DNA from: Bryoerythrophyllum caledonicum
Taxonomy: Eukaryota > Streptophyta > Bryopsida > Pottiales > Pottiaceae
DNA: 64,000 nt
Direction: 5' to 3'
NCBI GenBank assembly: GCA_963971425.1
Contig: OZ020514.1
Coordinates: forward strand, 20,805,406-20,869,405
Made by a program: the position numbers and the translations under genes
The notes under the pieces: generated by a model
The model's database searches: none
What the model was told of the DNA's origin: nothing
What the model saw: the letters and a program-made list of their open reading frames with translations, nothing else
Part shown: positions 14,706 to 62,650 of the stretch, piece by piece
Position numbering within the stretch: position 1 is the first letter of the stretch
Layout of the letters: every line of letters starts with the position of its first letter

Positions 14706-14709
14706 ACGC

Positions 14710-30365: not shown

Positions 30366-30649
30366 AAAGTAAGGGATTTGGAATGTAAGGGTTAGAAAAA
30401 ATAAGAGATTGAAGAAGTAAAAGTTCAAAAAATATGGGTAAAATAAAGTAATGGATTGTAAAAGTAAAGGTTAGGAAAAGTAAGGGTTAAAAAAGTAAGA
30501 GTGAGGGAAATTAAAGAATAGAAAAGTAAAAAGTTGAAAAAATGGTGAAAATGGTAAAAAGGTAAAAAAGAGACATTTGAAAATCAAAATTTATAAAAAG
30601 ACAAGGGATTTAAAAAGTAAGGGTTGAAAAAGAAAAGGATTGAAAAGAT

Positions 30650-33051: not shown

Positions 33052-33082
<31 letters not shown>

Positions 33083-33753
33083 ATTTTGAATTATTGAAAT
33101 TTTTATTGGATTCATGGTTTGAAAATGCCTTGGGCCTTTAGGAGTTTATTAGAAACCCTGTGTTTGTAAGATAATAATGCCTTTGGTTGTAAACACAACA
33201 AAAAACCAATCACCGCTTAGGGTACATATATTGGATGTATTAGCCGGGTGTTGAGTATTAACCGGGTGAAGTACTTCTCGTTGCCATAAGTATTCAAACA
33301 TCATGACGAAGTGAACGACGTCAACTTCAGCCGACAACAATCGATTGCTAGTCTACCGTCACTCTCACATGCCACGCTCACCTTCCTCTTCCCCATCCTC
33401 ATTCTTAATTCCTCCTCCCTTGCTCGAGCTTGCCATAGCCACTCTTCCTTTTCGCCATAGCCGTTTTCATATTTTGTGGTTGTTTTTTGTTGTCTTCCTC
33501 ATCGCCTTTGAAGTCTTCACCGCGGTCTTTCTCTATTCTTTCTCTTCTGTCTTTGTTCGCGGTTGGTCCATCGTTGTGTTCTTCATTCTCATCTTCGTGC
33601 TCATAACTGGAAAGCGCTTCGTCGATACTAGAGACAGGTTGAACTGAAGAGGCGCATTGAAGAGGTGCGTGTGCATGCGAGGAGGAGCGATGAGGTGCGA
33701 TGTTCTATGACCTTTTGTGAGCTCCTTGGGTGAGCAAGGTGGACGGCGTTCTC

Positions 33754-36907: not shown

Positions 36908-37064
36908 GTAAGTCGTACTATTCCATTTAGTTTAGTGAGGTTCAACATTTCCACTAAGTTTTCCAATTCTTTATATTCGTTGTTTTCGCTTTTCTTCAGG
37001 ATCGGGGGCTCACCCAATCTTCTCCCTCAATCGAGAGTGTACTTACTTCAATTCATGCTTTTAG

Positions 37065-38537: not shown

Positions 38538-38879
38538 GTAAGAATAATGTCATCATTTGTCATCATTATCATTCTTGCTCTTGAAGTTTTTAGCGGCGTT
38601 TGTTCATGTACCTTACGTTCGAAATGGCTCTTTTCTTGCAGACCAAAGGCGCTAGAGTTGTGGAGGTTGTGTTCTCAACAACAAACAAGACCTTCGCTTT
38701 TGACAATGCGAAGAAATTTTGGGATGCTCGTTAGGTTCAGGGTTACCAATCCGACGTCCTTGGGGGTCTGAGAGCGTCCTAGGGCGTCCTAGGACGAGGA
38801 CGTCCTAACGTCAAGTCGGACGCAGCGTCCGGGGGGGGTAAAATGCATTTACCGAAGGCCGTAGTAAGTTTTCTGGACC

Positions 38880-39083
38880 GTCAGATTCGACGAAGTGCGA
38901 CGCGGCGAGATCTCAGCCGTCGAAATGCGTCGAGTCGTCCGTCCGGACCCCGCCGTCGGAGAGATCGGACGGCACCTCGGCCGTCCGCGTAATCGGACGG
39001 CCGATGGACAGATCGTACGGCCCCGATTGATCGCGGGGCCGCACGACGGCCGTCCGATTAGGCCGACGGCTTTAGGGCCGTCC
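38880..39083. repeat. CGGCCGTCCG-type GC-rich array upstream of the coiled-coil/RING gene
   Basis: Units such as CGGACGGCACCTCGGCCGTC and CGGACGGCCGATGG; it runs into the 200-N gap. The counterpart at the other end of hAT-C is 45640-45850. Confidence 0.8.
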
Positions 39084-39283
39084 NNNNNNNNNNNNNNNNN
39101 NNNNNNNNNNNNNNNNNNNNNNNNNNNNNNNNNNNNNNNNNNNNNNNNNNNNNNNNNNNNNNNNNNNNNNNNNNNNNNNNNNNNNNNNNNNNNNNNNNNN
39201 NNNNNNNNNNNNNNNNNNNNNNNNNNNNNNNNNNNNNNNNNNNNNNNNNNNNNNNNNNNNNNNNNNNNNNNNNNNNNNNNNNN
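39084..39283. other. Assembly gap (200 N)
   Basis: Exactly 200 Ns in the GC-rich array of hAT-C; probably a placeholder length. Confidence 0.95.
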
Positions 39284-39379
39284 CAACCACAATTCCCAAA
39301 GAGAGTGTGGAGACAACGACGGTAGAAGACCCCGTACAATCAGATATTCCGAATATTTTAATTGTAGGAGGTGAAGACC

Positions 39380-41793
39380 ATGGTAACGTGGAACGAGGGG
39401 GGGGAGAATATGGATGGAGAAGAAACCGTTGTTCCAAACGTTCAAACTTTGGAAGGCATGGCACCAAAGACAATGGATGCCGGGCCAAGCACTTCAACGC
39501 GGGAAGCATTGGAATCAAATTCCAAGGACCCGATCATTGACAAGGGTACTTTGATTTCCAATATTGAAGAAATGCTTCGAACAATGCCAAACAAGGATAA
39601 GTTGAAAGGCTTGCTCGACTTGAGTATTAAGTGGGCTGAAGCGTGCGCTCAAGTAACAGAATTTGGTCATCCAATTGATCTGCCAATTGATTCGAACGAA
39701 TGGGACCAAATACATGGAATAGTGAGAGTGGCACGTAATTTGGTGGACGGGGCCGAAATTCTTGCAGGAATGGCTCCTCATCTTCTAGATATGGCTCATA
39801 CGTTTTCAACTATCACTCCGAGTGTGCTACAAGCCACTGATGGCTTCGACACGTTGGCTTCCTCTATAACGCCAATGTTAAAAGACAGGATCGCGCTAAC
39901 TCAGAAAGTGATGGATATGGAGGAGGAGGCCTATAAAAATGAAACCCTCACTGGACACCTTAAATCGGAATTAGAAAATAACAAGCGTATGCTAGAGGCT
40001 AGTAGGAGACGCGTTACAAGGATGTCGGAGAAGATGGATGCGCAGGTTCGTGAGGTGGATGTGGTAGTCATTGACGACAACGCTGAAACTTCTGACGACC
40101 TTTCTCTTTCCAAGTTTGGAGGGAACGATGCAGAGGATGCCACACCGGTTAAATCTAACAGACCGACTGAGCCATCTTCTGTTCAATTGGCAATACTAGC
40201 TGGGAGTAGCCAAGTACGGCCTGCAGCGCCTGGAAAAGGGAAGGCGATAGTCGAAGGTGAGGGGGAGATGGAATCGATGTCACAGAAGTCGGAGGTGGCA
40301 AATAAGGAGAGGGACGAGGCACGAGCGGAACTAGAGACACTGCGGAGGACATTGAGATCGGTGGACGACACACCATGGAACGAGAACACAATGCCTTGGT
40401 TGGGTTGGGTTCATCGCCTTCAGGACAGGGAGACCATGGTCTTAAAAGTACAACATGATTTGAAGAAATTTGCCGCCGAATCACAAGAATCATGTGAACT
40501 CGTGGATACCTCATTGGAGAGATTGAAGAAATTCGTTGGACAACGTGGACATGAGTCCACGAAGGTTACTATTTGGGGTGATGTACCGGAGATGATGGAT
40601 CGCACAAACTATCATCGGAAGGGTAGAGCCATAGTATTGACTGGGCTTTAGAAGTGGAGGAAGGATGGATGCCCTACAATACCTTCTCATCACATTTTCT
40701 AGAATCTGAGCGAAGAATAATCCATACTTGCGACCCTGTCCCGGCATTCCTCAATGACAAATGCAGCTTGTGCCAAGATCATTTCGGTCCGGAGGGAGCG
40801 TATACGTTGGGCCAATGTGGCCATAACTTTCATATTACTTGCATTTCCGCAGGTTCTATGATACAATCGGCGTGTCCTATGTGTCGCTCTCCAATTAGCT
40901 CAAGATTCTACGAAGTGATGGGAATAAGAGATGTTATGCCACCGGGGCACGAGTTCAACCGATGGAATCTCCCCTTGGATCAACTTCCAAAGAAATCCTT
41001 GAACTATCGTGAGTGGGGAAAACCACTTATGTGGAATAGTGAGCTTTCTTGTCACCAACTATACGAGGAGTATGGGATGGAAATTGATCCATTATTTTGG
41101 ATGACACAAGACTATGAGGTGGAGATACGGGCGCGAGAGATTGAAGATGGCGAGCAACAAGAGTTGTTTTGCCGCAACTTTGGGGGGCATTGGAGCACTG
41201 AGCACAAGCGTTTCTTCCGATTTCCTCCAAGGAGAGTTGAGAAGGGAGAAGATGGTGTATGGCATGAGATAAACGATGGCATTGAGTTGAGAGATGAGTA
41301 CAAGAAGTACAATTGTACTTTGGTGGGAAGAGCCCTGCTCCTTGCAAAGTTAGAAGAGGCCGCAAAGCTACGGAGTTCAACAGAAGAGGATTCTCTTAAA
41401 GACGTAGAGTGTTTTTATTGGGATGCGGTGCAAGCTTTTGATCGGAGGATTGGGGACGCCATTGGCTATTGGCGGAACGTGCTACAGAAACCCGAAGGGG
41501 AATTATTGGTGTCATTCCCACAGAATGACGCTTTTGTGAACAATGTGGTGGAACGAATAAAGAAGGCTATGGAAATCTTTGCGGCGAAGAAGGTGGATCC
41601 TGGCGGGAAGCGGAAGAGGGATGATGGCAATGACATCGACGATAGTTGGTGGTCGGAGATGCATAGGGAAGTTGCAGCCGTGGATCGAGAGTACGAAGAG
41701 GGGGAGAGGATTGCTAGGCCAAGCCAGAGACCGCGGACTCGTAGTAGCACTCGAACGGATCATACCGACGAGCCTTCTTCTTCAAGGCAATAG
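39380..41793 (+). CDS. Coiled-coil / RING-H2 protein carried by hAT-C (one frameshift)
   Basis: Two overlapping frames form one gene of about 800 codons. The first, from ATG 39380 to 40651, has an acidic N terminus and long helical or coiled-coil segments (EMLRTMPNKDKLKGLLDL, NNKRMLEASRRRVTRM, KERDEARAELETLRRTL). A -1 shift near 40620 joins it to SIDWALEVEEGW and then the second frame. A RING-H2 finger follows near 40768-40890: CSLC, 14 residues, CGHNFHITC, 10 residues, CPMC, so all eight zinc ligands are present. After it come a conserved region (FRFPPRRVEKGEDG, FGGHWSTEHKRF) and a basic Arg/Ser-rich tail (KRKRDD, SQRPRTRSSTRTD). The same architecture, with SIDWAKLGW and GPEGAY-like blocks, occurs at 52148-54359, which confirms the joining point. 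A RING-H2 finger suggests E3 ubiquitin-ligase activity, perhaps acting on silencing or the transposase; that role is inference. Confidence 0.75.
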
Positions 41794-41829
41794 AATGTGG
41801 TAGATGAATGTAAAGCTTAGCGTAGTTGT

Positions 41830-42300
41830 TGTTTAAGGAATGGTGTGGCAAGAAGTCGGAGGCATGCCATGGTGGAGCATACTTTTTGAAATAAAGGTTT
41901 ACAATTTGTAATTTATTTTGTCAACTTCTGAATTCTTTAATTGTATGTGGGTGTTAGAAATATTGTGGTGCATTAGGTGGATGCGAAGCAGTGAAATGAA
42001 TAGAAGTTTGCAAACTCGAATTACATTCTGCATACAACAAGAATGACATGTTTAAGTCATTTTGTATGGGATGACTAAATCCATACACAAAACACAAGAC
42101 AATAGAATAGCAAAAGAGATGGATGTAAAACTTGTGCATATATGAAAAAACTTTATTGATATTCGGAAGAAATCCAAGAATCAATTGAGAGAATAGAAGC
42201 TTTTAATGCATACGTAGAACGACTATAAAGTATCCTAAACTCGAACTACAATATTAACATATAAAATAAGTGCGGTGAATGCATACTACGTAAATGGGCC
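41830..42300. other. Short convergent intergenic region of hAT-C
   Basis: Lies between the two 3' ends. AATAAA at about 41891 could serve as a poly(A) signal for the plus-strand gene. I see no gene. Confidence 0.5.
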
Positions 42301-42308
42301 AAATTTTC

Positions 42309-45300
42309 CTACTCATTCACATCGGTAGGAAGTTCGTAATCGCTGTCATCTTTGATTTTAGCTCCACTAGATCCTGAAGGATCGTCTTCATTATCCGAGG
42401 CGGGTTCTTGTTTGATTCTCCGTTTCATCGACAATGATTTAACGATTTTGAATCTCTTACAAGTTCCAATGACATCAATGGGATTACTAGGTCGCGTGCG
42501 AAGAAATGGATGCATGGAAGCTTTACGTTTCCTCGTGTCGTTTGTAGGCCGCCTAGGTTGTAACCCTAAACCTCCCTGAACCTCGGGGTGATGTATGAAG
42601 AGCTTAGACAGAGGTACATCGCCATCACTAGGTAGGCCATCGGATGGGTGTTGCGGCGTTCGGGGTCGCATATGTTTTGAAAGGGACACCAAACCGTGGG
42701 AGGATTTCAAATTGGTTGTAGTGACCGTTGCAAGAGGGGTTGCAAATAGAGACCGCGACGCGCGACCTTGCAAGGACGGTTGATCCTTAGAGGAGGATGC
42801 CTTCTTCTCCGTAACGTGAATGGGACTCCGTATACCACCGTAAGTACCGCCTTCCATAGTTTTCTCCCCGAGAACAACCGTGTCGTCTAGGAATGGCTCT
42901 TCCGTTGTTTGCTCGCGGTTGTCCGCAAGTGCGAGACTGTGGACGCCTTCGTCAACACTCTTCACTGAGGACCCTTGCTTTTTTTGCCCGTGTAGTACCG
43001 TTGTACGGTCGGATGATAAATCTTCTCCTCCCTTGTCCTTCGTGTCTTCCGGAAGCGGAGTCGGTCCACGACAAAGGATATTATTGCTATTGAGCATGCC
43101 GTCTCCATTCAGGTACCGCGCTATGGGCAACAAGTCATCTTCTTTCTCAGCAAGAGTGTCGTCATCGACAAAATCATACTCGGTGATTGGGGCGCCGTGA
43201 GTATGATCCATACGTTGAGAAGGGCTGCTATCGATGCCATCGTCTAGATGCTCTACATCGTAATTGGCAAGGGCACTGGTGTTTGAATCGTCAGAGTAGT
43301 CCGGGTCATCCAACTCACGTGGTTGTGGATCCTCTAAATCCAAGTTCTCCGCGTACCACCTCTTCTCATCCGTCAACTTTGCATTCGCAAGCAAGTTCGA
43401 GTTTGTATACACAAAGACCAAGTCATCAGCCCTTCCCGGTAATAACCGATTCCTTTTCTTGTCGCGGACGAAAGAGTAGCTACTCCAATTGCGTTCGCAA
43501 GAAGAAGATGACACTATCTGCGCTAGTATTCTCTTTGCAATTGGTGCAAGGAGCTTTCCACAAGCACCTTCAAAATTCCACCAAGCATACGGAGAACATT
43601 TTTGGTCCTTAGGATCCAACATGTCATGGAATGGTACATCCTTGTTTCGAAATGCCAGGAACTCGTTCACTACCTCCGGGTAAATCTTAGGATCACATAG
43701 CTTTCGTAGTACTCGTTTGCATGCCGTGATGACATCCGGATCATCAGCCAACTCTTCGTCATGGAGTAAATAAGGATTGAGAAGTGCACCCGCGGAATGT
43801 AAATCCGTGGTCATCATCCGTTTCCGTGCGTAGAACCTGTCCTTAGCAATGAACGCTAAATCGCTAGCGAGACTGAATGGTTCATCACGCAACGCTAGGA
43901 CATGCTTCTCGAGGTCGCGAAGGATGTGGAAAACCTTGGGCATGCAAGGTTCCTTGGCATCGAATTCCCGAAGCGCATACACTATAGGGGCTACCATCTC
44001 GTGGAAGTTCGTGCACCGCTCCTAGAAATGCTCATCTAGAACCACTCTTTTGATGGCTCGAGAAATGACTACTTTATCTCTAGCCGAGAGTGACTTCTTA
44101 GAGGCATATGCCCGCCATTCAGGATCAACGACGGTTTGCTCCAATGATTCCTTGACCTTCAGCAGGCGATCTATCATTATGAAATTACATGCAAATCTTG
44201 TTTGACCGGGGAACAATAGGCTGAACTTCGCCTCGTGTTTACGAAACAGGGCGAGGGGCATTTGCCGATTCTTGACAAACTTAACCAAGAACTTGGCCTT
44301 CTCGAGAGTTTCTTTTACCCATGTAGCCTTCCCCTTGTCCTCCAACAATAAGTCCATGGCATGCGCGGCACATCCTTGAATGTATATGTGTGGATATTTT
44401 CTGACGACCAATGCTGAGGCATTGAGCATGACTGGAGCATTGTCAGTACACACCTGAACAATGTTGTTGGGGCCAACTTGTTCAATGAACTTGAACATGA
44501 TGGATGCCAGGTACGCAGCGTTCTTTCATTGCCCGTGGTATCTACAGCTCCCAAGAAGAGCTCTCCAGCGGGAGACACGAGCATTGCATTGCACAGAGGG
44601 CGGCTAGTCACAGACGTCCATCCATCTATGGCTAGAGTTCCTCCAAACTTCCGAACACTCTCGAACAGTCACTTATTGAGTTGTGCTTCCAAATCAGCCT
44701 TCGCTTGTCCCAACAACCTTGTTCGAATGTCATGGTTAGAGGGTGGGACATATGGTTTTTTGAAAGAGGCAGTCTTCATCACGGCTTCCTTGAATGCAGC
44801 ATTCCGTGCTATAGCAAACGGCACGTTTGCTTTGTAGAAAAACTTCGGCCACACTTTGTCTAGCTCCCGCCGCTCCACTTCTTGAAAGCCATCTTCGAGC
44901 ACGGATTGCCTCACCAATCTGGGGAACGTGGCACCTACACTCCCTTGTTCGGTGAAGTCGTGGTGGAAGGTGGGGGTTGGTTCAACCATGGTTGATGGTA
45001 AAATCACGGGGGGGAGGCTTGAGTGGACCCTACACAAGAGTCTTCACCGGTGGACTTGGGCGTGCTATATCCTGAGGCAGGCGTAGATTTCAATGGTGGG
45101 GTGGGGCAATGTTCGGAGAAAAGTTCTCCATTGTGTTTCGGGTAGTGGCCACGACAATTTTTAAACAAAGTCTGTACGCGGGGTGTCAATTTGGTGCAGA
45201 GGCCAACACCGCTATTGCGCTTGCCAGGGATTTCTTCGTACCCGAGATGACTTAGTTGTCGTTCTAGCCTTTTTGCAAAAATGCGGTGACAAAGACTACA

Positions 45301-45375
45301 TCGGACGGAGTCGGTCTTCCTGCCTTGTACTTCAGTGATTTCGACATACCAAGGAGACCAAGGTTTGGTAGACAT
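42309..45375 (-). pseudogene. hAT transposase of hAT-C (BED finger, DUF659-type core, dimerisation domain)
   Basis: ATG 45375 starts a BED-type finger (VRCSLCHRIF, RQLSHLGYEE). After a frameshift near 45030 comes KVWPKFFYKANVPFAIAR, then LAIDGWTSVTSRPL near 44620, VCTDNAPVM near 44440, YPHIYIQGCAAHAMDLLLED, TRFACNFIMIDRLL and the C-terminal hAT block (SSSSCERNWSSYSFVRDKK, ADDLVFVYTNSNLL). DGW and TDN hold the expected Asp residues and the CERNW block the likely Glu region. The last 562 codons (43997-42309) are open and end in an acidic tail with KRRIKQEP. Breaks are a TGA near 44666, a one-base shift near 44520 and a TAG at 44022-44024, where a Trp normally follows Phe (FW). It is the best-preserved hAT transposase in the window but still disrupted. 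Confidence 0.9.
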
Positions 45376-45639
45376 TCTGATGGGTGTAGTATCGAGAATT
45401 GAACAAACGTGATAGGTAGTATGTGGAAGAAATATCAGGAGTTCCAAAAGAAACTCTGATATTCAAGACTTCCGAACTCAATGATTACCAAGCAATAGAT
45501 ACATAATGCAGCTGAAAGCTCTTGGGAAACAAGATGTTAGATGTGAAGTGAGGCTCCATGTGCTGTTTTCTTTATACTCACGGTGATTCTGACCGTTGCG
45601 AGACAATTCATTGTCAATCTAATAGGGGACGGGGGAGCT

Positions 45640-45850
45640 GTAGTGAGAAGGCCGTCGGCCTTGGCGGACGGCCATGGCGGACGGCCGTGGCGATCGGCCA
45701 TGGCGGACGGCCATGGCGGACGGCCACGCGGACGACGGACGCCGGTCGCCTGAAGCTGATGGCCGTGCGGTCGGCTGCGGAAAACAACGGACGGCCGTGC
45801 CGTCCGCCCAAGCGGACGGAATGGGCGGTCGCCCGGGACTGCGGACGGCT
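45640..45850. repeat. CGGACGGCCATGG array upstream of the hAT-C transposase
   Basis: Units GGCGGACGGCCATGGCGGAC and variants. It lies about 270 bp upstream of the transposase ATG and near the right end of the element. Confidence 0.85.
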
Positions 45851-46779
45851 ATTTACCCCCGGTTAAATTGACAAAACTGGTTATGTCACCGGACGTCCTG
45901 ATAGGCCGGAGGACGTCCCCCGTCCTGACGTGCGGACGTCAGGGATGTCGAGCGTCTTGACAACCCTGGTTAGGTTCTAGTCCTTACCCCGCCTGAGGCT
46001 CCGTCGGCTAAAAAGAGGTTGTCCAAGGCGGAGAGAATTAGAAAAAAGTCCTTGGTCGTTTCACTCGCACCTGCCCAAAATGTACAGCCAGAGAGAAGAA
46101 TCATTCTCAGGCGTGCACGACAAAAGGAGAAGACTTTGTCAGAATCCTCAGAAGAAGAAGCTGGCACTAACCACGGTGGCCCTGAGAGCGACAAAGAGAA
46201 AGACAATGAATCGGATTGTGATGACGAAGAGGACAACATTAGGGAAGAAGAGATACGATCCAATCGTACTGAAGAGGGCGCCCACGAAGAGGACAACAAT
46301 GACATTGGATCGGATGGAAGAGGCACCCCAATTAGAAATCCGATCGCTGCGCTACCTAGACTTGATGTGAATCGGTCCGCCGACGAAGCAGACCTCACTC
46401 AGCGCCATCCGTCCGAGACCGAGGCCAAACTTAGCGCTCTATTTTCTGACACTAGGCGACAGTTGCATCTTGGCCCGGACAACACTGACATTGGTGGCAA
46501 CGTATGATCCAACGACTTCTTTTTTCCATGGACTTAAACACCTTATAATTGACTTTGAAATAATTAATGCAGTGCATGGTAATACATCTTTGGTAGTGTT
46601 TATATCTTCAATACCCCTCCTTCTTACAGGCATCACGGAGTGCCGGTGCCTACCGCACGAGTGGATCGCCGTCCTCGAATTTGATATAGCCCACCCCCTC
46701 ATTCTGAATACGCAATCTTTGTCTGCCACAACGTCTGCTTCTCATGTAATGTTTAGTTTTCATACTCTAAAATTCTGGT

Positions 46780-48064: not shown

Positions 48065-48660
48065 TGAATAGTTGAGCCCTGAGCACCTCGGGAATCCACG
48101 GTAAGGGTACCGAGGTACACTGTCGTCGTGGACTTAAATGAATTTTTAGTTCACGAGCCTAGCTTCAATCGCATTTGCACTCCTAGACCCGACGGCGGTC
48201 GTTTTCTAGAGTGGTTGTACAATAAGGCTAATGTGGTCATATGGAGTTGTGCGATGTTCCGTAATGTGGATGATATGGTCACAACACTTCTACATGATAC
48301 TAAACTGACGCGAGATCAGCTTATAGTCTTGTCGCATGATGATACGACGAAGTCCACTTATCCTAGAGTGGACCATCCTACCAAGAGGTACATGCTGAAG
48401 GACCTCTCTAAACTCACAAGGGGCCATGATATCATCAACCCCAGCCTGACATTGCTTATTGACAATAGTCGTGAGAAGAATTTCCTGAATGACGAGTTCA
48501 GTGCTATTCACCCATCTATGTGGGCTGGTGATATGGATGACAACTTCCTCCGCTAGACCCTGCGTTCATGGTTGTCGAGTATGATAGCATCACTTTGTTC
48601 TGTACCTCAATATGTGCAAGCCAATCCCCTTTTTGGATTTTCTAATGGTTCTGTTCTTAG
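48065..48660 (+). pseudogene. FCP1-homology (NIF-like) domain, plus-strand copy 1
   Basis: After TTTCAG near 48050 the frame reads through two TGAs to VPRYTVVVDLNEFLVH. It then gives RPDGGRFLEWLYNKANVVIW, a central region, SLTLLIDNSREKNFL and SSMIASLCSVPQYVQANP. These match the FCP1/NIF fold of the HAD superfamily: strand 1 motif, RPG.-FL-.vviWS motif, lllDNS motif and C-terminal Y-x-E-like helix. The normal DxDxT/V catalytic motif is DLNEF here, so the general acid Asp is replaced by Asn. This resembles a known plant FCP1-like group with DxNGLL. A TAG at 48554-48556 interrupts the C-terminal helix. Probably a pseudophosphatase or pseudogene; function not known. Confidence 0.7.
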
Positions 48661-48935
48661 ACGCTCTAAAGTAAGTGAATCTGTAGTAAAAGGATGCTCT
48701 CAATCGTGGGACCAACAAACTTTTATTTCACCTGAATCTTCTCCGTCGTGAAATGAAAAGGTCTAGTATATTTTAATTTTACCACGCCAGTTTTGTATAG
48801 CTGTAGGGTTTGTTACACTCTTTTACGCTGTTGACAATGCCATGTCATATCTGTTTTGTTATGATTCCCCTTAATAATTTGTACATTACCTTCTCTATTG
48901 TGTATAACATTCTTTTTTTTTGTTATGTTCACAGC

Positions 48936-49534
48936 GACGCCGTGACTACTCGAAGAAAGTTGTCGTATTGTCTGTCAACACATTGCTTTATTTTAAGCCA
49001 TACCATAATCACAACCCATAACGATTTGATCCGAAGAACATAATATTTTGGCATGGTCTCGTAGAATTCTTCCAAATCCTTCTGAGGTCCTTCCGTGTGG
49101 GTATATGGTCGTCCATGCAAGCCAAGCGCCCGAGAAAGGTTCTTCAAGTCATCCTCCCTGAAGATATAAGGACAAAACTCCTTTTTGTTTGTGGACGAAA
49201 TAAGTGTACTTTGCCGGCAAGGTATCCATCATGCATGAAGGATCTACTGAGGCTAACTCACGACAAGGCAACAAAGGAGTTCTACATAAAGGACAAGGTA
49301 TTGATGGTTGACGATTTCACATGGTGGAATTTGATGAACGGAAACTTGGCATGTTACTTTCCAAAGTCATCACATGGGGAAATGACCTTACCCAATGCAA
49401 GGAAAATTATACCCGACATTGCAACAACATTGCTTCTGTTCATCCTGCCGCTGCAATCTTCACCGTCTGTAAAGGAGTATCTTCAGACACATGATATGGA
49501 TGGTCAGTGCAAACGGAGACTATGCCAGCAATGA
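48936..49534 (+). pseudogene. FCP1-homology domain, plus-strand copy 2
   Basis: The exon follows TTCACAG near 48935. It begins DYSKKVVVLSVNTLLYF, where the strand 1 motif is SVNTLL, so both the nucleophile and acid Asp positions are altered. A TAA near 49020 breaks the frame. It continues VEFFQILLRSFRVGIWSSM, VILPEDIRTKLLFVCGRNKC, DKVLMVDDF and IIPDIATTLLLFILPLQ up to a TGA after 49530. It aligns with minus-strand copy 3 (60897-61521) block by block (LPEGVFQCLSFVYSRS; VIPNVATDIIPLIFAL), so the two loci contain the same kind of tandem domain. Confidence 0.65.
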
Positions 49535-50300: not shown

Positions 50301-50599
50301 TCCGGATTTCAAAGTCCACATTTCATTCTAAACTCCATTTTTACTTAAATATCGCATTGAATCATAAAACTTGATTAACATCAAAGATAAACAACATTGT
50401 TTTGAACTCAAGCCATTTACAAATGAAGTGCAAATTACAAAATTCTTGAGGTCTATGATTTCAAAATGTTACAAAATTGCCCATTTATCATTCATGGCAC
50501 TACTCCCATTGCTATCAAATTCTTTGACTTTTAAGTAAACACCAACTTTGCATATTCTTGGATTTGATCGTCCTTTTTTTGGAATAGTGTGCGTAATTA

Positions 50600-51433
50600 T
50601 TAAAGTTCTTCTTCGTTGTCGCTGGCTTCTTCTACTAGATTCTTGTACTTCTCTAAACTCTGCTCATATTTAGCAAGAAGTTCAAGATGAACCTCGCGGC
50701 CAATTGGAACATCATCCGAAGACTCTAGGTTTTCATTGATGTTCACGTATGCAACCGCGTCCTTCTCAATTGCATTCTCTTCCTTGACGGATTCTTTTCT
50801 AATTGTCCGTATTTCTTGGAGGGCAGAATTGAGCCACTGGCATTTAATAAAGCCTTCAATCTCCTTGGAAATAGATGGGTTGCATCCTGTGTCCGAGTCG
50901 TCACTAGAAGTGTCAGACCACACGACTTTCTTGTTTGGAACTTCATCCTCTTTCGCCTTTTTTCTTAGAGCTTCGCCCGGAAACTTGCGCTCTATTGATA
51001 GTGTCGCTGTGGATACTGGTGTCATCTTGGATTTTGGCTGTATTTCCATCGTCCTCCAATCGAGTACTACTCCAAGTATAATTTTTTCGTACACCATACG
51101 TAAAATGGATAGATTCACTTCGTTCCGGTGAACCTTCGCCGTGTTGTAGATTTGCTGGTTTGCTTGGATGCATTGCTCTTTGTATACTTCGTTGGCACCT
51201 GTAATAATTTAAGTTACCCTTGTCGTAGTGCCAAAGTTGCGAATACCGCAAATGCGGCCACATTCGTCCCAAATGACACCTGTCAATGTACTTTGCACAC
51301 TCTATAATGTCTACGAACTTGGTACATCTCCCCAGCCTCGAAATGCTTTCAGCTCATCGTCGATGAATATCTGAAGTCGTTTCTTCTGCTTGTGGTTGCG
51401 TACTCGACCCGCATCACGCTGTCGTTTCATCAT
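50600..51433 (-). pseudogene. Accessory gene X, copy B
   Basis: The start is at ATG 51433 or 51430. The N-terminal block is KRLQIFIDDELKAFRGW. A frame change near 51300 leads to CAKYIDRCHLGRMWPHLRYS near 51270-51210. A second change leads to LRMVYEKIILGVVLDW and IERKFPGEALRKK, KVVWSDTSSDDSDTG and an acidic coiled coil (LLAKYEQSLEKYKNLVEEA) that ends at 50600. It matches copy A (15100-15700) in order and spacing. The N-terminal region is also related to the start of the RING-family gene next to it. No enzyme motif; function unknown. Confidence 0.65.
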
Positions 51434-51639
51434 TCTCTTTTTGGAATCCCAAATCTTAGAAGGGCCACTTGAATTTATACTTGAAACAAGCGTGAAGGGG
51501 TGCCGGGAGTAAAAGGTTGTCAATAGACACTGTAAAACACTTCCCAATAGAGCTTTGCAAGCAGTCGCCACGTGGCAGTTGGAGGCCAAAGCGCCTAGAA
51601 AGTGGGCCCATCGTGGTTCAATTCCAAACTTATAGTGAG

Positions 51640-51800
51640 GCGCGCATGCCCTTCTATGGGCCGCGCGCATACGAGATGGGACATGTGCGTACCAATCATA
51701 ATTAGGCGGTACAAACATCGTGGCCGAGTGCGTGCGAACAGGGGTCGCGCACGTGCGAATGGGGGCCGGGCGCGTGCGTTTTGTCGCTGGGCGCAAACGA
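51640..51800. repeat. GC-rich array upstream of gene X copy B
   Basis: Units GGCCGCGCGCATACGAGA, GGTCGCGCACGTGCGAA and GGGCCGGGCGCGTGCG, about 210 bp upstream of the X start. The same relative position is seen for copy A. Confidence 0.8.
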
Positions 51801-51959
51801 ATAGTGGCCCTGTAAAGTTCAGTTCTTTGCAAATTGAGGGAATTAAATGTTACGAAATCATTTCGGTGTTTAAAAGTCAGTTGCTAAAATTGGGACAATG
51901 CTTTAAAGATGTCTTTATATTGCCTATGCAAATTCCGCAATATACAAAATGTTTATAAA

Positions 51960-52147
51960 TGCTATGCCTTCATCTTGCATTCTATTTGTCTATGCTCCAC
52001 TTCATGATGCAACAGCTTCACTTGGTTCAGCACTTGTTCTAGCCCCATCATTACGCAATTTACGAGCAGCTCGCGTCCTTCGGTAAGGCCCATTCGAGTC
52101 TAGCAGAACACGTAACATAAATGAGTTCCAAAGTGCTTTAAGAGTCT
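51960..52147. other. Intergenic between X and RING-B
   Basis: Probably the decayed 3' end of the RING-family gene. Nothing specific recognised. Confidence 0.3.
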
Positions 52148-54359
52148 TCACAGTCGCCGGACTACGTTCCTCAAGAAGGAAGTCAATAGCTTCCTCCTTC
52201 CAAATTTTCTTCCACTACAATTCTTCCCATTGCAATGCATTGCAAAGATCAAGATCTGTGGCCTCTCCCAATTCTGACACCACACGTCCCTAGTGATTCC
52301 ATAGTTTCTCATCTGGTTGTCGCCCAAATTGTAATAACTTGCGTCTAGCATCCCAATGTCCGCCCATGACTTGGTAGAAGAAGTTTCGTTTATCAACATC
52401 CGCCGCGGTGGTTCCCGATATGAGCTTCTTGTCCACTCGTATAATTTCGGTGTGGTCATTTTTCCAACCAATTTGCGAGCTCACACTAGACTTGTGTAGC
52501 TGGTGGCACACTGCACGCCAACTCCACACCAAATCTTCTCCCCACTTTTGAGCATAGGCATCCCGAGGTGCAGTCTCCGGGTTCAACTCCCAAATAGGTG
52601 GCATGTAGGTGGTGGGACCAAACAAATCAATCAAGCGCTTATGAAATGGTGCTCTGCACTTTGCTGAAAATCTACATGTCAAGAGACTACCTAGCAGACA
52701 CATTGGATGGCATAAACACCGGCGCGTTCCAAGAGCATATGCACCTTCTGGCCTAAAAGGATTTAAACGAATTGGGCAAGCATCTTCATTTTGCGTGAAG
52801 CTTGTTGGTGTGGGCCATAACTTGTGTGCTTCCCCTTTCTGCTTGGTCGAAGGGCATGAGAAGACATAGCATTTGCGTGGTCCCACCCCAACTTTGCCCA
52901 GTCAATAGATCCACCATCACGCACTCGCAATTCACTTGGAAACATCTCATCAATGTGTGCCCAACATGTGAGTCCAAAGCCACGGCGAGTATTTGCCGTC
53001 AGATATTTGTCGTCAATCTTCTGGACCTCTATTGCCATTTGCCTCGCACGGTCAACATTCAAGATGCATGCCACCTTCCATTTTTTGAAGGATTTTGTTT
53101 GCAATGCAAAGCTGAACTAGTTCCGTGCTTGGATTGGGTGGGGTAAACAACAGAGAATCTTTGGTGCCGATGCAATCTACAAATGGCTGCGCTCCTACAG
53201 TCAGCGGCGGTAGGAAAAGCGACGGACAACTAACAATGCGTCGACGTTGTGGTCTCGCCGGGGTCTCTAGCAAGCAGCTAATAATGTTGCCAACCAGATT
53301 GACTAGAATTGTGTCGTCCATACCTCGAACAATGCCGCCAATATTAGCCTCGCTCGCAACAGCTCAATGACGCAACTCTTCTATCTCGACTGCTTGCTTG
53401 GTGATAATATCACCCACTTCACTAGATTGCAGCTTGAGGTTTTGAATCTCTTCTTGGAGACGTTGAATTATCTCATCCTTCAAGCTTATAGTGTCCAATA
53501 ACTCGAGGTGAGCATCGACGGCCGTACTTCCGGACCTTGATGCTACATGCCTCGTGTTGGAAGTGGTGACTACGACATCCATCATTGGCATTTCATCCAT
53601 AACATGGATGAGTTCTTCATCTCCAACACCCCCAAGACTTGCTATGGGTTCATCATCGCCAACAAGATTTACGATTGGTAAATCTACTTGGCTACCTCCT
53701 TGAACCAACAAAAGTCCTGCTTGATGGAGCTTCACTCGTTGCCGCTTTTTTCTTAAAGCACACGCCACTATAGAATTGAATGAACGCCAACCTACACGTC
53801 CATCTAAGTCCAAATCAGGTGATGAATCTGACTCTCTTGGAGGTACTTCTTCTAGGCCATCCGCATTCTGTGGCCCTAGTGCCGTAAACGGAAACCTTGG
53901 ATGTTGTTCTCTAGGCTCATCGGCATGCATCTACACCCTTGGCATTTTTGGAGTTTCCCGCACAGTCTTCTAATCCACTCGCTTATTGAAAATGACCTCG
54001 GTATATACCATGCGAGCGAGATAGAGGGGACATTCATTAGGGGGCATGAATTCAAGCTCGTATAAGTATTGGTGCCCTTGGAGGGCATGAGTTTGAAACT
54101 GCTCGTTGATGCAATACTTCAAGTTTGCCTTGTTTGTGCGATGATTTATCAAATGGCGGTGTGAAGGAATCAACTTTGACAAGTGGCACCACTCGATGTA
54201 ATCCTCGCAAGTGAGGAGAGACCATGGCAATGGCTCATCTTGCCAACCCACAAATGCAGTTTTTGCTGGATTGTTGAACATGTGCATCCGCTTCTTCAAG
54301 AGCTTCCCGTGCCGTGACCTATCTTTGTCTTTTCCCCTCTTCCACTGCGCGGTGGACAT
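52148..54359 (-). pseudogene. RING-family gene B with degenerate zinc finger
   Basis: ATG 54359. The N-terminal domain (TAFVGWQDEPLPW, CEDYIEWCHLSKL, LYLARMVYTEVIFNKRVD) is shared with gene X. Next come a variable region, a coiled coil (LKDEIIQRLQEEIQNLKL) near 53430, GLTCWAHIDEMFPSEL and GGSIDWAKLGW near 52960-52890, then the RING-like part near 52770-52660 (PEGAYALG, CHPMC) and GGHWDARRKLLQFG. The last blocks align with the hAT-C gene (SIDWAL, GPEGAYTLGQCGH, FGGHWS). Several zinc ligands are lost: the second Cys is Arg, the third is Arg, the first His is Cys, and the seventh Cys is Ser. Stops and frame changes lie near 53960, 53362, 53050 and 52880. It shows that the RING gene and X domain belong to one family of transposon-borne genes. 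Confidence 0.7.
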
Positions 54360-54399
54360 TGGTGGTTGCTATTAGGCTTTTGGCTCACTCTCACTTTCC

Positions 54400-54660
54400 A
54401 TAGCGGAACACTCTAAAAAAATCTACCGAAATATCCGTTAACTATGCTAAGCTCTATCTATAAAAAAAAACAAACAAAAATTACCACATTGGATTTCAAA
54501 ATAATCCAAGGTAGTGATGTTTATTAATTCAAATTGTGAACAAAGGTGATGCAATACGTCGTTAGTGTACAAATCAGGAGCCCTAATAGAAGATCACACA
54601 ATCTGCCACCTTGAAATGATAGTCGAAGGCCACAATCTCCAATTGGAGTTTTGTGAGATG
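54400..54660. other. Leader region between RING-B and the GC-rich array
   Basis: No gene. Probably the 5' untranslated or promoter part of RING-B. Confidence 0.4.
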
Positions 54661-55130
54661 GGCTAGGCGCGCGCGGCCATTAGTAGTATGGACGCGTACC
54701 CACGCGGCATGGAGATTGGGCGCATGCCATATGACGACCAGGCCCGTAAGTTGGAGTCTCGCGAGTACAATTTGGGGTCTCGCGCGTACGATCTAGGGTC
54801 GGGCGCGTGGAATCTAGGGCCGCGCGTGCACACTGGGCGGTTCGGCGCATGGCTAAGGGAGGGTGCGCCCATGGCGTGGAGCCGGGCGCGTCCCAATTCG
54901 GGCCATGCATGTACAGTTGTAAGGCGGGCGCCTGCGAGTTGGGGCCAGGCTCGTGCGAGTCTGGGCTAGGCGCAGGTGGGTCCGGGCCAGGCGCGTGCGA
55001 ATCCGGGTCAGGCGCGTGCGAATCCAGGTCGGGCGCGTGCAAATGTTGGGCCAGACGCGTGCAAATCTGGATTGGGCACATATTGAATCGAGGCCGGGCG
55101 CGTGGCGTTTGAGTGAGGCGCATGCGGACG
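54660..55130. repeat. GC-rich array between RING-B and the kinase gene
   Basis: About 22 units of about 20 bp (GGGCCAGGCGCGTGCGAATC, GGTCGGGCGCGTGCAAAT). It lies 300 bp upstream of RING-B (minus) and 200 bp upstream of the kinase ATG (plus), so it sits in the place of a shared bidirectional promoter. ORFs crossing it encode the repeat. Confidence 0.9.
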
Positions 55131-55334
55131 TGCATACGAGGCCACGATTTATCATTCCACTATAAATGGAACAGATTCTAATCTCATTTTACTTAGGCTC
55201 CTCTCAAGTGGCTCCTTGTCCTAGTACTATTTGTACTTTGCTAGGAACTAAGGGGGGGCCACTACACATTGGGTGTGGGGGAGGTTTTGATTTTCTTTTT
55301 AAATTCTAATTTGTGTAGGGTTGTGATTATTGCA

Positions 55335-57541
55335 ATGGCCACTAATCGTAATATTGGAAAGCGCCCCGCGTATGTTGATTTAGATGCTCGAGATGCATCC
55401 GAACTTCTACCTACTAGTATTCCAGAGTCGAGCCGCAATCCTTCCAATGAACCGAAGGCACCGTCAAAGAGGGCAAAGCAAAAAATATTTGCGCACAAGA
55501 AGGATGCGGATTATCCACCGAAGGAGTATACCGCATTTCTCTGAGGTGTGGCAATACAATATTACCGTCGGTGGTGCAAAACTGACGTGGTGCGATTCCT
55601 TCAAGTGTATTTGGAGAAGGGAGAGCCAGGAATCATGTGCCTACAAGCCAACCTCCAGTCAAAATTTGAGCGTGCTCATGTGAGTTCCGAATTGTACAAG
55701 GATGCATACGTCATGTACCACTATGCCTCATTCATGGAGAGAGTAATGACTCAATGCACAAGTAATGCATCGCATGTATTCGATTGTGAGGTGAAAAAAC
55801 CTTGCGGGGGCCAGCATCAACCTCGAGACTTGGAACTCCGCAAGTTCCTCAAAGGTGTGAAGACCAGGATCGGCAAGTTTTCAAGCTCTCGTACGAGAGG
55901 CATGCATGGAATGAACAAACAATAAAGTCGGCCATGCAGATGCATATGTTGCACAACGTTCAATTCCTTCCAGAAGATATCAGAGTCTATGGACTTTCCG
56001 GATATAATGCCGTTGGTGGATACGGAAAGGTTCGGAAGGTCCGCATCATGGGTGTAAGAGTCATTTCGACATACATGGAGTTTGCTGGGAAATTCCAACG
56101 GCGTCACATCCGAAGGAGAAATTTAGACAACAGTCTCACCACGCCATGGTATGTCATGTTGCACACCCAGGAGTTATAAAGTTTTGGGCGGTGAATACGA
56201 AGAATATGGAAGCGTACACATTGTGGTGGAATGGTGGTAGCTGAGCCCATTTTTAAACTGTCGATTCAAAAGCAAATCTGTCGGCTTCAAGCAACTCAAT
56301 CCTTTCAGCTTCATACATAACGGCGGACGATACTGTACAAATTTTAGTCTTTCTAAAGAATAGTGCAAGACTTGCTTGGGCTTTGATGTGCACGATGGCC
56401 CAAGTGCACAAGGCAAATGTCATTCACAATGACATCGCTCCCACAAACATGCCTTTGGATAGAAGTCAGTTAGGATTACTCACTTTTGGGCAAAAAAAAT
56501 ATGCCCTGAAGTATATTTTTTTGGACAAAAAAACTTGATTTTGCCCAATTTAATGGGAATAAAAGGTTTTTCTTCAGAAAAAAGTATGTTTCAAGATGGA
56601 TCAATGCATGATGTATCTAATTGGATAAGAAATCAGAGAAAAAATCAACATTGAGTCCTATTTTAGGAGCCTTGAAGAAATATCTTGTTTTTTAGCAATA
56701 AAAGTGAAAATAAGTTTCTGATCTAGAATTTTCAATAATAATATATGAACACATTATGGCGTGAATGTGTCTCAAAACTTTTGAAGTATTTAACTTCCTA
56801 GAACTCTCAAAATAAGTATATTTGGCAAATGTCATATATGATATACTTGTGACAAGTATATATTGATGAAAGACATACCTATATTGGCCAAACCGTAAGT
56901 CAAAACTAAACATTTTTAGGGTTCCTAGACTTTAAATCAAGGCAATTATCACATTCCATCAATAAAATTCCAAGATCGATCCCACATTTGCACTATGCAC
57001 CAAGTGAAGGTTTGTGACTCTTTCCAAAACCATTTGTGATACTATAAATATACCACCTTAGTGGACTTTCACCCCTCTCCACTTTCCTCTAGAGAAACCA
57101 GGGTCTGTCTTCATTGGCATATGTGATTGGAGAATTGCGAGCCGAGTATCATACGAAGAGCCATCAAAATATGGATTCCGGACTGAGACGGAGCTTGACA
57201 ATCAACATCGTAAACGACATTGGGTAGCTCTAGAGTTGTTTTACAAATTCGGCCCATAAAATTCGGAAATGGCATTGGATGTGATGCAACGGCAACACCA
57301 ATACACCTAGCTTGCCGATTCGTACTCCGTTGGGTGGATGGCTAGAGCGATTTGGGTGAAAGAATCTGACTCAACATTCTTCAAATCAATTGTCAACTAC
57401 GCAACTTTTCAAATGAAGATCGACAAGTTTCTGGAGCAAGATCCAATCAAACGTCCAACAGTCTCTAAAATGGTTGATGAGCTAATGGCTAAACCATTCA
57501 ACTTTGAAGTTCCAAACGCTTGCTTCCGCTATAAGATATAG
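55335..57541 (+). pseudogene. Protein-kinase-like gene, decayed
   Basis: ATG 55335 opens a frame with a basic N terminus (SKRAKQKIFAHKKDADY). It continues past a TGA at 55542-55544 into a helical domain (YYRRWCKTDVVRFLQVYL, LQSKFERAHVSSELYK). A frameshift near 55900 leads to a kinase N lobe: glycine loop VGGYGKVRKV near 56010, AGK (beta-3 Lys) near 56080 and HPGVIKFWAV near 56170. The catalytic loop VIHNDIAPTN is at 56419-56448 (HND instead of HRD). The C lobe resumes after about 650 bp of probable intron: CDWRIA near 57120 (DWR instead of DFG), WVALEL (APE position), SYSVGWMARAIW near 57320 and DPIKRPTVSKMVDELM near 57440. A TGA near 56240, a TAA and a TAG near 57258 and 57308 break it. Altered HRD/DFG motifs suggest a pseudokinase even before decay. 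No closer family assigned. Confidence 0.75.
56460..57100 (+). other. Probable intron or inserted AT-rich DNA inside the kinase gene
   Basis: AT-rich with no coding similarity. Kinase similarity stops near 56455 and returns near 57110. Clear GT/AG borders were not identified. Confidence 0.4.
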
Positions 57542-57699
57542 CAATTTTGGCTTAGCATTTTGGTAGTGAAGGCAAATTGTTGATCCTTTTGCAATATGTA
57601 CTAGCATTGTGATATAATGGTGTGTTTTGCCTATCTCACAATAAATAAAATATTAACATTTTTCATACACATTGCGATATGAAGCTCATGCATGTTAAG

Positions 57700-57810
57700 C
57701 AGTCAAGAGAGCGCGCAACCCCTGAATCCCATACCCGTACGCGCGTGCCCTCAGACGCCATGCGCCCGGCCGAGCCCCCTCCAAGAACGGGCAGAGCCCC
57801 TCCACAAATG
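57700..57810. repeat. Short GC-rich CGCGCGTGCCC array
   Basis: Five to six degenerate units (GTACGCGCGTGCCC, GCCATGCGCCCGGCC, CAAATGCGCCCAAC) about 160 bp beyond the kinase 3' end, in the orientation opposite to the array at 54660-55130. Confidence 0.6.
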
Positions 57811-57819
57811 CGCCCAACA

Positions 57820-60896: not shown

Positions 60897-61521
60897 CTAT
60901 TCAACTTCCGACCATTTGACGACGGCTCGCCCATACTTGCGCGCATGCGTAACCGCCCAATGCGCCTGCCCTGGGCGTTCAACCTGCGTCATATATTCAG
61001 GGACGGATGAAAATCTATGGAGGGCGAAGATGAGCGGAATGATGTCAGTTGCCACATTCGGGATTACTCTGTCTTCGGTTGGAGACGTCAAATGACCACG
61101 GAACGGCCAGGGGATATAGCACATCGAGTCGAAGGTACGTCGGAGCGATTTGGGTTCAACGTCGACAAACAGTACTTGGTGGGGCTTGCAAACATGTCTA
61201 GATTGCTTCTTCTTGTAGAGCGTGGACGGCGTTTTGTAGCTCCAAGGAAACCTGGAACTATCAGCTACGTCACTTCTGCTATAAACAAACGACAAACATT
61301 GAAAGACTCCTTCCGGAAGAATGTGCAACAAGAGCAGCTTTAACTTGTTTGGAGGCATCGTAGACCACAGTCCGATGTTCAAGCACGGAAGTAACATTTC
61401 GAACGGTTTCTTTAGGCCCGGCCTCCGGACAACATTTCCATGAGGGAAATGAGAAGATATCGGCTTGCAAGGGTCCACATAGCAAAGAAGACCATTGACG
61501 CATAGTACAATACATTTTTGA
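60897..61521 (-). pseudogene. FCP1-homology domain, minus-strand copy 3
   Basis: Reads CIVLCVNGLLCYVDP near 61520-61480, RRPGLKKPFEMLLPCLNIGLW, HILPEGVFQCLSFVYSRSD, HQVLFVDVEPKSLRRTFDS, VIPNVATDIIPLIFALHRF and VPEYMTQVERPGQAHW. The strand-1 motif CVNGLL replaces DxDxTL, so the nucleophile is Cys and the second Asp is Asn. The open frame covers 193 codons without a stop, and it aligns with plus-strand copy 2 at 48936-49534. An intron-like gap with a palindrome (61632) separates it from the next domain upstream. Confidence 0.7.
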
Positions 61522-61989
61522 ATCAGTGATGGAGGAGCGTGCAGGCATCTGAAATGGAAGGATGTTCCCTAGAAAATGTTAAAGAAACATTGTCATAATG
61601 CAAACTACGGGTGGAGATGAGAAGTAAAACACGTCGGCGGGCCGCCGCCGACGGAGGAAACTACAACAAGTAGATGGATAAGAAACAAAGCACTCAAATG
61701 AACTATGCGAGGAATATAAAACAGAGAAAATTAGTTCAGCAAAATTTGAGATGAATATATAAAAGTAATTACATGAAATTGTCTATAACATTTATCAATG
61801 CATTACGATGGGCGAGAGTCCAGTGAATTAAAGTGGGTGCCTTTCCGGGAGGCCTTCTGAGAAAATATGGCTCTCTAAGGTGGAGGAGTGACTGTCAACT
61901 TGGCCATTACTTCATCTAGACAACCTGGCTTGTCGTAGCCTTCTTTGTAAGTAGAGCGTACCTCCCGGTATCTATTGTGGACCGTTGTT

Positions 61990-62650
61990 CCTGGGAAAAT
62001 ACGACGCTGACCCAAATCGGAGTTCGACCTGCAGTAATCCTGGATGCTGAATCTGGACTCCAATAGTCCTTGAAGCCAGGGAATCAGCATACTCTAAAGA
62101 TACGTCTGTCCACCAGGTAGTGTGTGTTCCGGGGGAGAATATGTGAATATTGAAGGATGCACTCCATTAAAAGGATCATTTAGGATATTACGGAGGGGGT
62201 AATGATCAATCAGAAGTGTGTTCCATTCATTCGCGTCTGGCCCAATAAGATAGCGTCTATCTTGAAAAAGACAAGCAAGCCGCTTCAGCAGCATGTCGTA
62301 CTTCATTGTTTTGGGATTCGTCTAGGGAGATATATCACAAAACCCGTTGGTCATCTCTCGGACGTCCTTATGTAGGTCAGGGTACACCTCATGCAAATAA
62401 CCCATGTGTATGATCATGGGTTGATATTTCTCGGTGGACTAGAATGCCAATCCGAAGTTGGACTGGCAGAACGTCAGGAACCCAAGAAGACCCGGCCTAG
62501 GTTTTTGATGAAAATAGGGCTTCGTATCTCTTCCCCGGTAACCATATCGTTCAGCCATTAGAAGCCCTCTAACTTCTAGGACGAGGTTGTATCTTGAAGG
62601 ACCCACCTGAATGTTCCTCAGAACAACTTCGGAGCTCACGTTGGCAGCCG
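61990..62650 (-). pseudogene. FCP1-homology domain, minus-strand copy 2
   Basis: Upstream frame: NLVLEVRGLLMAERYGYRG near 62590, KPRPGLLGFLTFCQSNFGLA near 62490 and FWSTEKYQPMIIHMGYL. After a TAG at 62322-62324 it gives MKYDMLLKRLACLFQDRR, EWNTLLIDHYPLRNILND and GVHPSIFTYSPPEHTLPGG. After a TAG at 62094-62096 it gives LIPWLQGLLESRFSIQDYC. The order (strand 1, RPG-FL-FW, NTLLID-P-L, Y/FPYS, PGG-L-L-GL, Y) is the same as in plant FCP1-like proteins with DVNGLL. The strand-1 motif EVRGLL has Glu in place of the nucleophile Asp and Arg in place of the second. It is the clearest FCP1 family match in the window. Confidence 0.75.

Follow-up and report, generated by a model that had tools for sequence, protein, structure and literature searches.

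The X, RING-B and kinase genes of Bryoerythrophyllum caledonicum described here almost certainly form, together with a hAT transposase gene, parts of one transposable element. The genes X2, X1, RING and kinase are probably selected accessory genes that reside in this transposon. The X-RING-kinase block of the window, the 64,000-nt stretch that was analysed (GCA_963971425.1, OZ020514.1, 20,805,406-20,869,405, forward strand), is tentatively read as belonging to a degraded copy of this large, abundant hAT-superfamily DNA transposon, of which it forms the right half.

Results

A copy elsewhere in the genome (C6) measures 14.1 kb from TIR to TIR, and its five genes lie between the TIRs in the order transposase (-), X2 (-), X1 (-), RING (-) and kinase (+). 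Three pieces of the window, 104-371, 10718-15944 and 50358-57816, are collinear with the C6 element in alignment, all in one orientation and without overlapping segments relative to C6. Two parts of C6 have no counterpart in the window, namely approximately 750 bp that separate X2 from X1, and the TIR on the right. Because the window aligns collinearly in pieces to C6, its two X genes would most simply be X2 and X1 of a single copy, split by nested insertions. The earlier note had proposed one mobile gene kit, and the collinearity of X2, X1, RING and kinase with the hAT transposase between the TIRs bears this out. The features of the window are as follows.

104-371, + strand: left TIR (from 104) and subterminal repeats; aligns with C6 501-553 and 664-892; the TIR matches; no TSD partner found
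8032-8618, + strand: short copy of the X-RING-kinase element family with both TIRs; TSD GCAAAGGT; the span includes a 200-N gap, so the coordinates do not give the true length
10718-14430, - strand: hAT transposase gene (about 11060-14430), broken frame, with flank; 10718-15476 aligns with C6 979-5680 at 84%
14480-14710: GC-rich 20-21-nt repeat array (family D8) upstream of the transposase; same array in C6 at 4791-4949
15010-15870 (ends approximate), - strand: X2 gene, broken frame, module and acidic tail; aligns with C6 5221-6328; X matches
38738-45968: second hAT element, both ends present; 8-bp TSD GTTAGGTT at 38730-38737 and 45969-45976
39371-41793, + strand: RING-C gene of the second element, two frames (39371-40651 and 40654-41793)
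42309-45447, - strand: transposase gene of the second element, several frames; PF05699 37.1 and DUF659 69.8 bits, both above cut-off
50600-51490, - strand: X1 gene, broken frame, module and acidic, coiled-coil-like tail; 50358-51809 aligns with C6 7079-8559 at 83%
52010-54402, - strand: RING-B gene, stops present, with X module, coiled coil, RING and conserved post-RING region; 51730-54837 aligns with C6 8585-11740 at 83%
54660-55130: GC-rich array of 21-nt repeats, flanked by RING and kinase genes that diverge from it; C6 has an array in the same place
55335-57541, + strand: kinase gene, broken frame, split by 56453-57075; 55092-56452 and 57076-57816 align with C6 12030-13392 and 13394-14139
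56453-57075: 623-bp insertion within the kinase gene, seen in the C6 alignment and absent from the 39 other scored copies

The second hAT element is nested between X2 and X1 and includes a 200-N gap. An Rfam scan and a tRNA scan of the window each gave 0 matches. Arrays of 20-21 bp are located upstream of the element genes and near both ends, and the motif GGGCGCG occurs 25 times between genes and 0 times within the 9453 bp of genes.

The gene order recurs in lists of copies scored across the genome. A RING gene stands head-to-head beside the kinase in 23 of 40 kinase copies, as compared with at most 1 in any of 200 randomisations, a control made for the kinase-RING pairing only. RING follows the transposase in the expected order at 25 of 94 transposases and in the other order at 0; X is followed by RING in 14/40 X copies, the transposase by X in 11/94 and by the kinase in 11/94, and the exact left TIR lies outside the transposase in 9/27 on C1. 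Exceptions to the order were single (kinase-RING 1/40, X-RING 1/40, transposase-kinase 1/94, TIR 1/27). The rows scored were 40 of the 61 listed X and 40 of the 78 listed kinase rows, the later ones, mostly second pieces, being dropped, together with the full sets of RING (150) and transposase (94) rows and 77 of the 100 listed exact left TIRs (C1 only, of 928). This linkage test concerns one family, the RING-B/kinase A element. Spacing between the element genes is fixed in the other copies of the scored lists.

The transposase of the C6 copy scored 29.5 bits against PF05699 (Dimer_Tnp_hAT; cut-off 21.4) and 107.8 bits against DUF659 (cut-off 34.7); the hAT C-terminal dimerisation region is present in it, and likewise in the second element of the window. 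TIRs are short and of the CAGGG type that is typical of hAT TIRs, with CANGGTTGT... at one end and ...ACAACCCTG at the other, and the left-end pattern of the element has 928 occurrences in comparison with 0 for the backward control. Exact 8-bp TSDs were found at C10:25.59 Mb, C7:24.57 Mb and, in the window, at 8032-8618 and 38738-45968. The TSD of C6 is imperfect (7/8 bases, with 3 extra bases), and one or both ends are missing from the remaining fetched copies. The dimerisation region, the 8-bp TSD and the CAGGG TIRs, all present, place the element in the hAT superfamily. Both fetched copies with exact TSDs (C10 and C7) have N gaps where the transposase and X would sit; no claim of non-autonomy is made here for copies that have RING and kinase only.

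Gene X was said to occur twice, and it does: a query with X of a different copy hit the window at 51433-51089 (59%, E 6.5e-37), where the frame is broken, and at 15650-15465, beside a hAT transposase (61%, E 7e-23). The main claim of the earlier note, that the RING-B N terminus carries the X domain, also stands. The two match within the window (40% over 55 aa, E 4e-12) and between better-kept copies (41% over 132 aa, E 1.7e-31), and the profile-profile check by hhalign gave 99.9% (E 8e-33). These alignments establish homology between X and the N terminus of RING-B. No Pfam match was found for the X module, and its predicted model has no recognised fold.

The RING of RING-B scored 12.0 bits against PF13639, below the cut-off of 27.3, and those of RING-C (34.9 bits) and RING-D (27.5 bits) scored above it. 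In 12 copies of RING-B, 89 of 96 zinc-ligand cells are kept and 7 of 96 are lost. The C-terminal half of RING-B had been described as shared with a gene in the second hAT element. The shared half is real (28% over 156 aa, E 6e-14, in the window; 31% over 221 aa, E 3e-26, for RING-C against the C6 copy of RING-B). The gene in question is RING-C, which has its own reading frame and runs antiparallel to the transposase gene; hhalign found no X module in it (0.4%). Three divergent head-to-head RING/kinase pairs were found, namely RING-B/kinase A, a pair beside C1:57.79 Mb and pair D; the pair is kept in other families, at RING identities of 25-36% and a kinase identity of 33%. For element D, neither a left end nor a transposase turned up within the 16 kb examined.

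Kinase A (copy C1:36.06 Mb) scored 44.1 bits against PF00069, above the cut-off of 31.7, and kinase D scored 25.6 bits, below it. The protein kinase motifs, that is, the catalytic Lys, HxDxxxxN and DxG, are kept in 8/10, 8/9 (D), 9/9 (N) and 9/11 copies. From the over-cut-off profile and the mostly kept catalytic residues, kinase A of the element is, by sequence, a PF00069-type protein kinase. The weaker claim, that the kinase N terminus carries the X module, fails the profile-match test: all seven hhalign comparisons gave 0.2-0.5% over 6-22 columns. However, hhalign is weak in this region: restricted to the N-terminal parts of kinases A and D it gave only 1.6%, while an alignment of these kinases that runs through the same part has 33% identity over 332 aa (E 3.5e-59). 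A remote homology between the X module and the N terminus of the kinase is therefore unproven rather than excluded. The proposed common module fused to different effectors is real for X (acidic tail) and RING, and fails for the kinase, which has no profile match.

Variants common to several copies were distributed over codon positions 1/2/3 as 206/158/260 (P 3.7e-6), and private variants as 414/376/387 (P 0.38). Shared variants favour third positions and private ones do not, which argues for selection while the element was mobile. Gene by gene the bias of shared variants is modest (P 0.015-0.081). The codon-position test was given precedence over NG86 ratios, as the latter were sometimes as low in shifted frames as in the true one (kinC without CpG: 0.41 against 0.49).

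Discussion

The comparisons established a single element, its gene order, the homology of the module, the catalytic motifs and a signature of selection, and from these we infer every biochemical role and target of the accessory proteins. Through the module that it has in common with X, the RING protein may be recruited to DNA of the element itself or to the complex of the transposase, and the likeliest DNA address of the module would be the GC-rich 20-21-bp arrays near the promoters and ends of the element. X1 and X2 would be RING-less co-factors or competitors bearing the same module. The RING protein, as a putative ubiquitin ligase, could remove or alter a host silencing factor or the transposase at the element DNA, and the kinase, starting from the divergent intergenic region that RING also uses, could regulate the ligase, the transposase or a host factor. 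The net outcome would be anti-silencing or control of transposition, with a logic comparable with that of VANC of VANDAL elements. An anti-silencing role of the accessory genes is conceivable but less likely than not. Its specific form, a DNA-addressed, post-translational counter-defence in which the X1/X2/RING module recognises the promoter and end arrays and delivers kinase-controlled ubiquitin ligation that removes host silencing proteins, is rather unlikely; if it were true, families with different arrays would bear co-diverged modules.

X, RING and kinase might instead act on the transposase, in its assembly, turnover or timing, and not on host silencing. The fixed-order linkage of the genes to the transposase agrees with this idea, as do X1 and X2, which carry the module without RING as competition-type regulators might; however, Ac and similar hATs are commonly regarded as requiring nothing beyond their transposase, and we consider such co-factors somewhat unlikely. 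The halves in the window are 35 kb apart with approximately 750 bp missing between them, so that at least two independent neighbouring elements (transposase-X2 and X1-RING-kinase) might merely resemble one. Their same orientation, the lack of overlapping segments, the collinearity with the complete C6 element and the fixed spacing in other copies all make this improbable.

It is similarly improbable that host RING and kinase genes were passively taken up by a hAT and amplified along with it while serving no purpose in its life cycle. Plant transposons are well known to capture genes (PMC13317346), and many frames in the fetched copies are broken. Passive capture does not readily account for the codon-position bias that shared variants have and private ones lack, for the persistence of the head-to-head RING/kinase pair at such low identities in other families, or for the mostly kept catalytic residues.

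This element shares with the hAT superfamily the dimerisation domain with DUF659, the CAGGG-type TIRs and the 8-bp TSDs. To our knowledge, simple hATs, as hAT elements are usually thought of, carry the transposase only, whereas this element has four extra genes (two module-only genes, RING and kinase) in its 14.1 kb. VANDAL elements are MULEs and so belong to a different transposon superfamily. In the accessible text of PMC5735166, VANDAL/VANC of Arabidopsis likewise has an additional gene family beside the transposase as well as non-coding tandem repeats, in which related families differ; RING and kinase are no part of VANDAL as described there. DNA binding of VANC is demonstrated in the same source. 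A VANC-type protein binds tandem motifs in the element that encodes it and causes loss of DNA methylation; compared by description, the arrays are present here and binding to them is putative. The fungal TET/JBP-carrying hAT7 and IS3EU, according to the accessible part of PMC12730594, are also DNA transposons, one of them a hAT, with resident enzyme genes. In that account IS3EU has an alpha-kinase gene opposite to the transposase; the fungal genes are dioxygenase and alpha-kinase and those here RING and a Pkinase-type kinase, and the TSD of hAT7 is 7 bp as against 8 bp here. Pack-type gene-capturing transposons also have non-transposase genes between TIRs (PMC13317346, in part), but here a fixed gene order recurs with signs of selection, and divergent families have it too. 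Among the matches listed in a literature search, with Repbase and most subscription papers outside it, no hAT with a RING or Pkinase gene was reported.

Genome annotation is affected as well, since transposons would account for many of the RING-like and kinase-like frames in a genome of this kind. A plant hAT lineage this abundant, in which RING, kinase and two module-only genes persist with signs of selection, would offer a natural system for studying transposon manipulation of host ubiquitin and phosphorylation signalling, and the module and the arrays are defined targets for direct tests of host manipulation. Such a transposon may carry with it the means of acting on the plant in which it resides.

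Structure and ends of the element

The element is a hAT transposon. Its copy at C6:6.325 Mb extends from TIR to TIR (positions 501-14635 of the fetched stretch) and carries five genes.

Genes of the C6:6.325 Mb copy
1321-4645, minus strand: transposase
5221-6261, minus strand: X2
7247-8299, minus strand: X1
8868-11318, minus strand: RING, with one stop
12274-13856, plus strand: kinase, in more than one frame

The TSD of this copy is imperfect: its flanks agree at 7 of 8 positions, and there are 3 extra bases. Two other copies retain both ends and are flanked by exact 8-bp duplications (GGATTGCA and AATGTAGG). Across the genome, matches to the left-end pattern with no more than 3 mismatches number 928, against 0 for the backward control. 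At C1:38.00 Mb, the transposase, X2, X1, RING and kinase genes lie in one row; the transposase there is interrupted by a further element, element D, whose right end is ...GACAACCCTG, then CATCGAAT.

The copy in the window

The window aligns collinearly with the C6 element in seven segments.

Features of the window
104-371, 10718-15476, 15482-15944, 50358-51809, 51730-54837, 55092-56452 and 57076-57816, all in one direction: segments aligned to the C6 element
38738-45968, flanked on both sides by GTTAGGTT: second hAT element, with its own transposase and RING gene (RING-C)

On the simplest reading of the alignment, these segments would be one copy split by nested insertions: about 10 kb before the transposase, 34 kb separating X2 from X1, and 623 bp inside the kinase. 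The second hAT element sits within the 34-kb stretch. No counterpart was found in the window for about 750 bp separating X2 from X1 in C6, nor for its final 500 bp, which include the right TIR. Exact 200-N assembly gaps lie at 8348-8547 and 39084-39283 and within fetched copies, and two of them fall inside repeats of this hAT family, which makes element lengths measured across gaps unreliable.

The window also holds other repeats. A second repeated gene set is located at 36104-37661, 48083-49531 (plus strand) and 60900-62321 (minus strand), and at positions 2299-7500 of another locus, L037. It includes an NLI-interacting-factor-like phosphatase (PF03031; 39.3 bits at 48128-48553, 50.9 in L037), which has unnamed neighbours in similar order in both places; the hAT element at 38738-45968 lies inside this set, which is perhaps another multi-gene mobile element. 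Two adjacent frames at 3821-4906 have relatives of 26-55% identity at the c3_2691, c7_715 and c10_2558 loci and are probably another transposable element. A near-perfect 4.4-kb palindrome (29389-33751) has arms that are 99% complementary, and a 46-nt unit in tandem (20729-21691; 16 registered copies) translates into repetitive charged frames.

A module shared by X and RING

The earlier note proposed that X occurs twice and that its domain forms the N terminus of RING-B, and both proposals held. An X query from another copy matched the window at 51433-51089 and 15650-15465. By blastp within the window, X at 15.5 kb is 40% identical to the RING-B N terminus over 55 aa (E 4e-12), and the RING gene at 40.6-41.8 kb is 28% identical to RING-B over 156 aa (E 6e-14). 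In better-kept copies, X and the RING-B N terminus share about 41% over 132 aa (E 1.7e-31). With hhalign, X scored 99.9% against both RING-B and the divergent RING beside C1:57.79 Mb, and the module scored 98.6% against RING-D, the RING of element D. RING-C is without the module; a search for structural relatives of the module gave none. The weaker suggestion, that the kinase N terminus resembles the module, failed the profile test (0.2-0.5% in 7 of 7 hhalign comparisons), a test that likewise missed the N-terminal regions of a related kinase pair (1.6% by hhalign; the two share 33% over 332 aa).

In X1 and X2, the module is followed by a tail of acidic, coiled-coil-like character. In RING-B, it is joined by a coiled coil, the RING and a post-RING region that is conserved. 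The RING of RING-B scores below the Pfam cut-off, which RING-C and RING-D exceed, and fetched RING-B copies retain 89 of 96 zinc-ligand cells. Kinase A, of the element family, exceeds the PF00069 cut-off (44.1 vs 31.7 bits) and kinase D, of element D, is under it (25.6 vs 31.7 bits). Fetched kinase copies keep the lysine (8/10), the catalytic Asp (8/9), the Asn (9/9) and the DWG Asp (9/11).

The fetched loci yielded two further divergent pairs with RING and kinase head-to-head. One lies beside the C1:57.79 Mb copy, and its RING aligns with RING-B at 29% over 316 aa and at 36% over 194 aa; the other lies in element D, where RING-D aligns with RING-B at 25% over 215 aa and at 31% over 251 aa. 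For neither pair did these loci show a transposase of its own or a left end.

Gene order across the genome

The genome comprises 437 Mb in 894 contigs, the window being 64 kb on contig C1. DNA searches gave 446 (RING-B), 737 (X) and 1319 (kinase) first-look candidates, with 40 of each scored, and protein searches gave 2895 for the RING N terminus (150 scored) and 2463 for the transposase (94 scored); these candidates are not confirmed copies. Because the scored lists are subsets of large families, the linkage fractions are lower bounds. A head-to-head RING lies within 10 kb of 23 of 40 kinase copies (other arrangement, 1/40; at most 1, mean 0.1, in 200 randomisations); for X, the expected order with RING was seen in 14 of 40 copies (other arrangement, 1/40). 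For the 94 transposases, the expected order was seen with RING within 20 kb in 25 (other arrangement, 0), with X in 11 (0) and with the kinase within 25 kb in 11 (1). The exact left TIR lies outside 9 of 27 C1 transposases, eight at 2.0-2.1 kb (other arrangement, 1/27).

Ten 20-kb neighbourhoods of RING-B copies were chosen among the best matches of the RING-B DNA search. RING and kinase are head-to-head in eight, one of which has about 2.4 kb of additional sequence separating the two genes; C1:38.46 Mb yielded just the end of a kinase, inverted, and no kinase was found in the 20 kb at C3:26.92 Mb. X adjoins RING in five and partially in a sixth.

Plastid-type contigs with rbcL, then accD, are present in the assembly. 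The Rubisco chains that match best come from plants and green algae, and the genome is taken to be that of a land plant. The Rubisco large chain is encoded on three contigs (C821, C590 and C894) with differing scores and frame lengths; these genes may be plastid copies, nuclear insertions or from more than one source.

Probable selection and non-coding arrays

Codon positions were compared in pooled X1, X2, RING and two kinase parts, transposase copies being too few. Variants common to at least two copies fall 206/158/260 on positions 1/2/3 (P 3.7e-6), those private to one copy 414/376/387 (P 0.38), and the distributions differ (P 4.6e-4); the per-gene bias of shared variants is modest (P 0.015-0.081) and sites are not independent. 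This pattern would be expected of genes that are under selection during the element's mobile phase and decay once inserted. NG86 medians were 0.38-0.54 in the true frame vs 0.50-1.18 in shifted frames (0.41-1.21 without CpG codons, once lower than the true frame).

In C6, the transposase, X2 and X1 each have 20-21-bp repeats upstream, and such repeats are also present in the RING-kinase interval and close to both ends. The intergenic intervals contain GGGCGCG 25 times, never from X2 to X1, and the 9453 bp of genes contain it 0 times; CGCGCGC has 29 intergenic occurrences and one in the transposase; all 19 occurrences of CGGACGGAC are within the two end intervals. The arrays of element D are different (CATCCGC-like). 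We infer that the module may bind the arrays.

Relation to known elements

According to PMC12730594, fungal hAT7 elements carry TET/JBP genes, and IS3EU elements have a gene for an alpha-kinase; enzyme-carrying DNA transposons are therefore already known. No report of a hAT element with RING plus Pkinase was found in the literature searched (titles and abstract starts). The gene set of this element is a likely candidate for manipulating the host.
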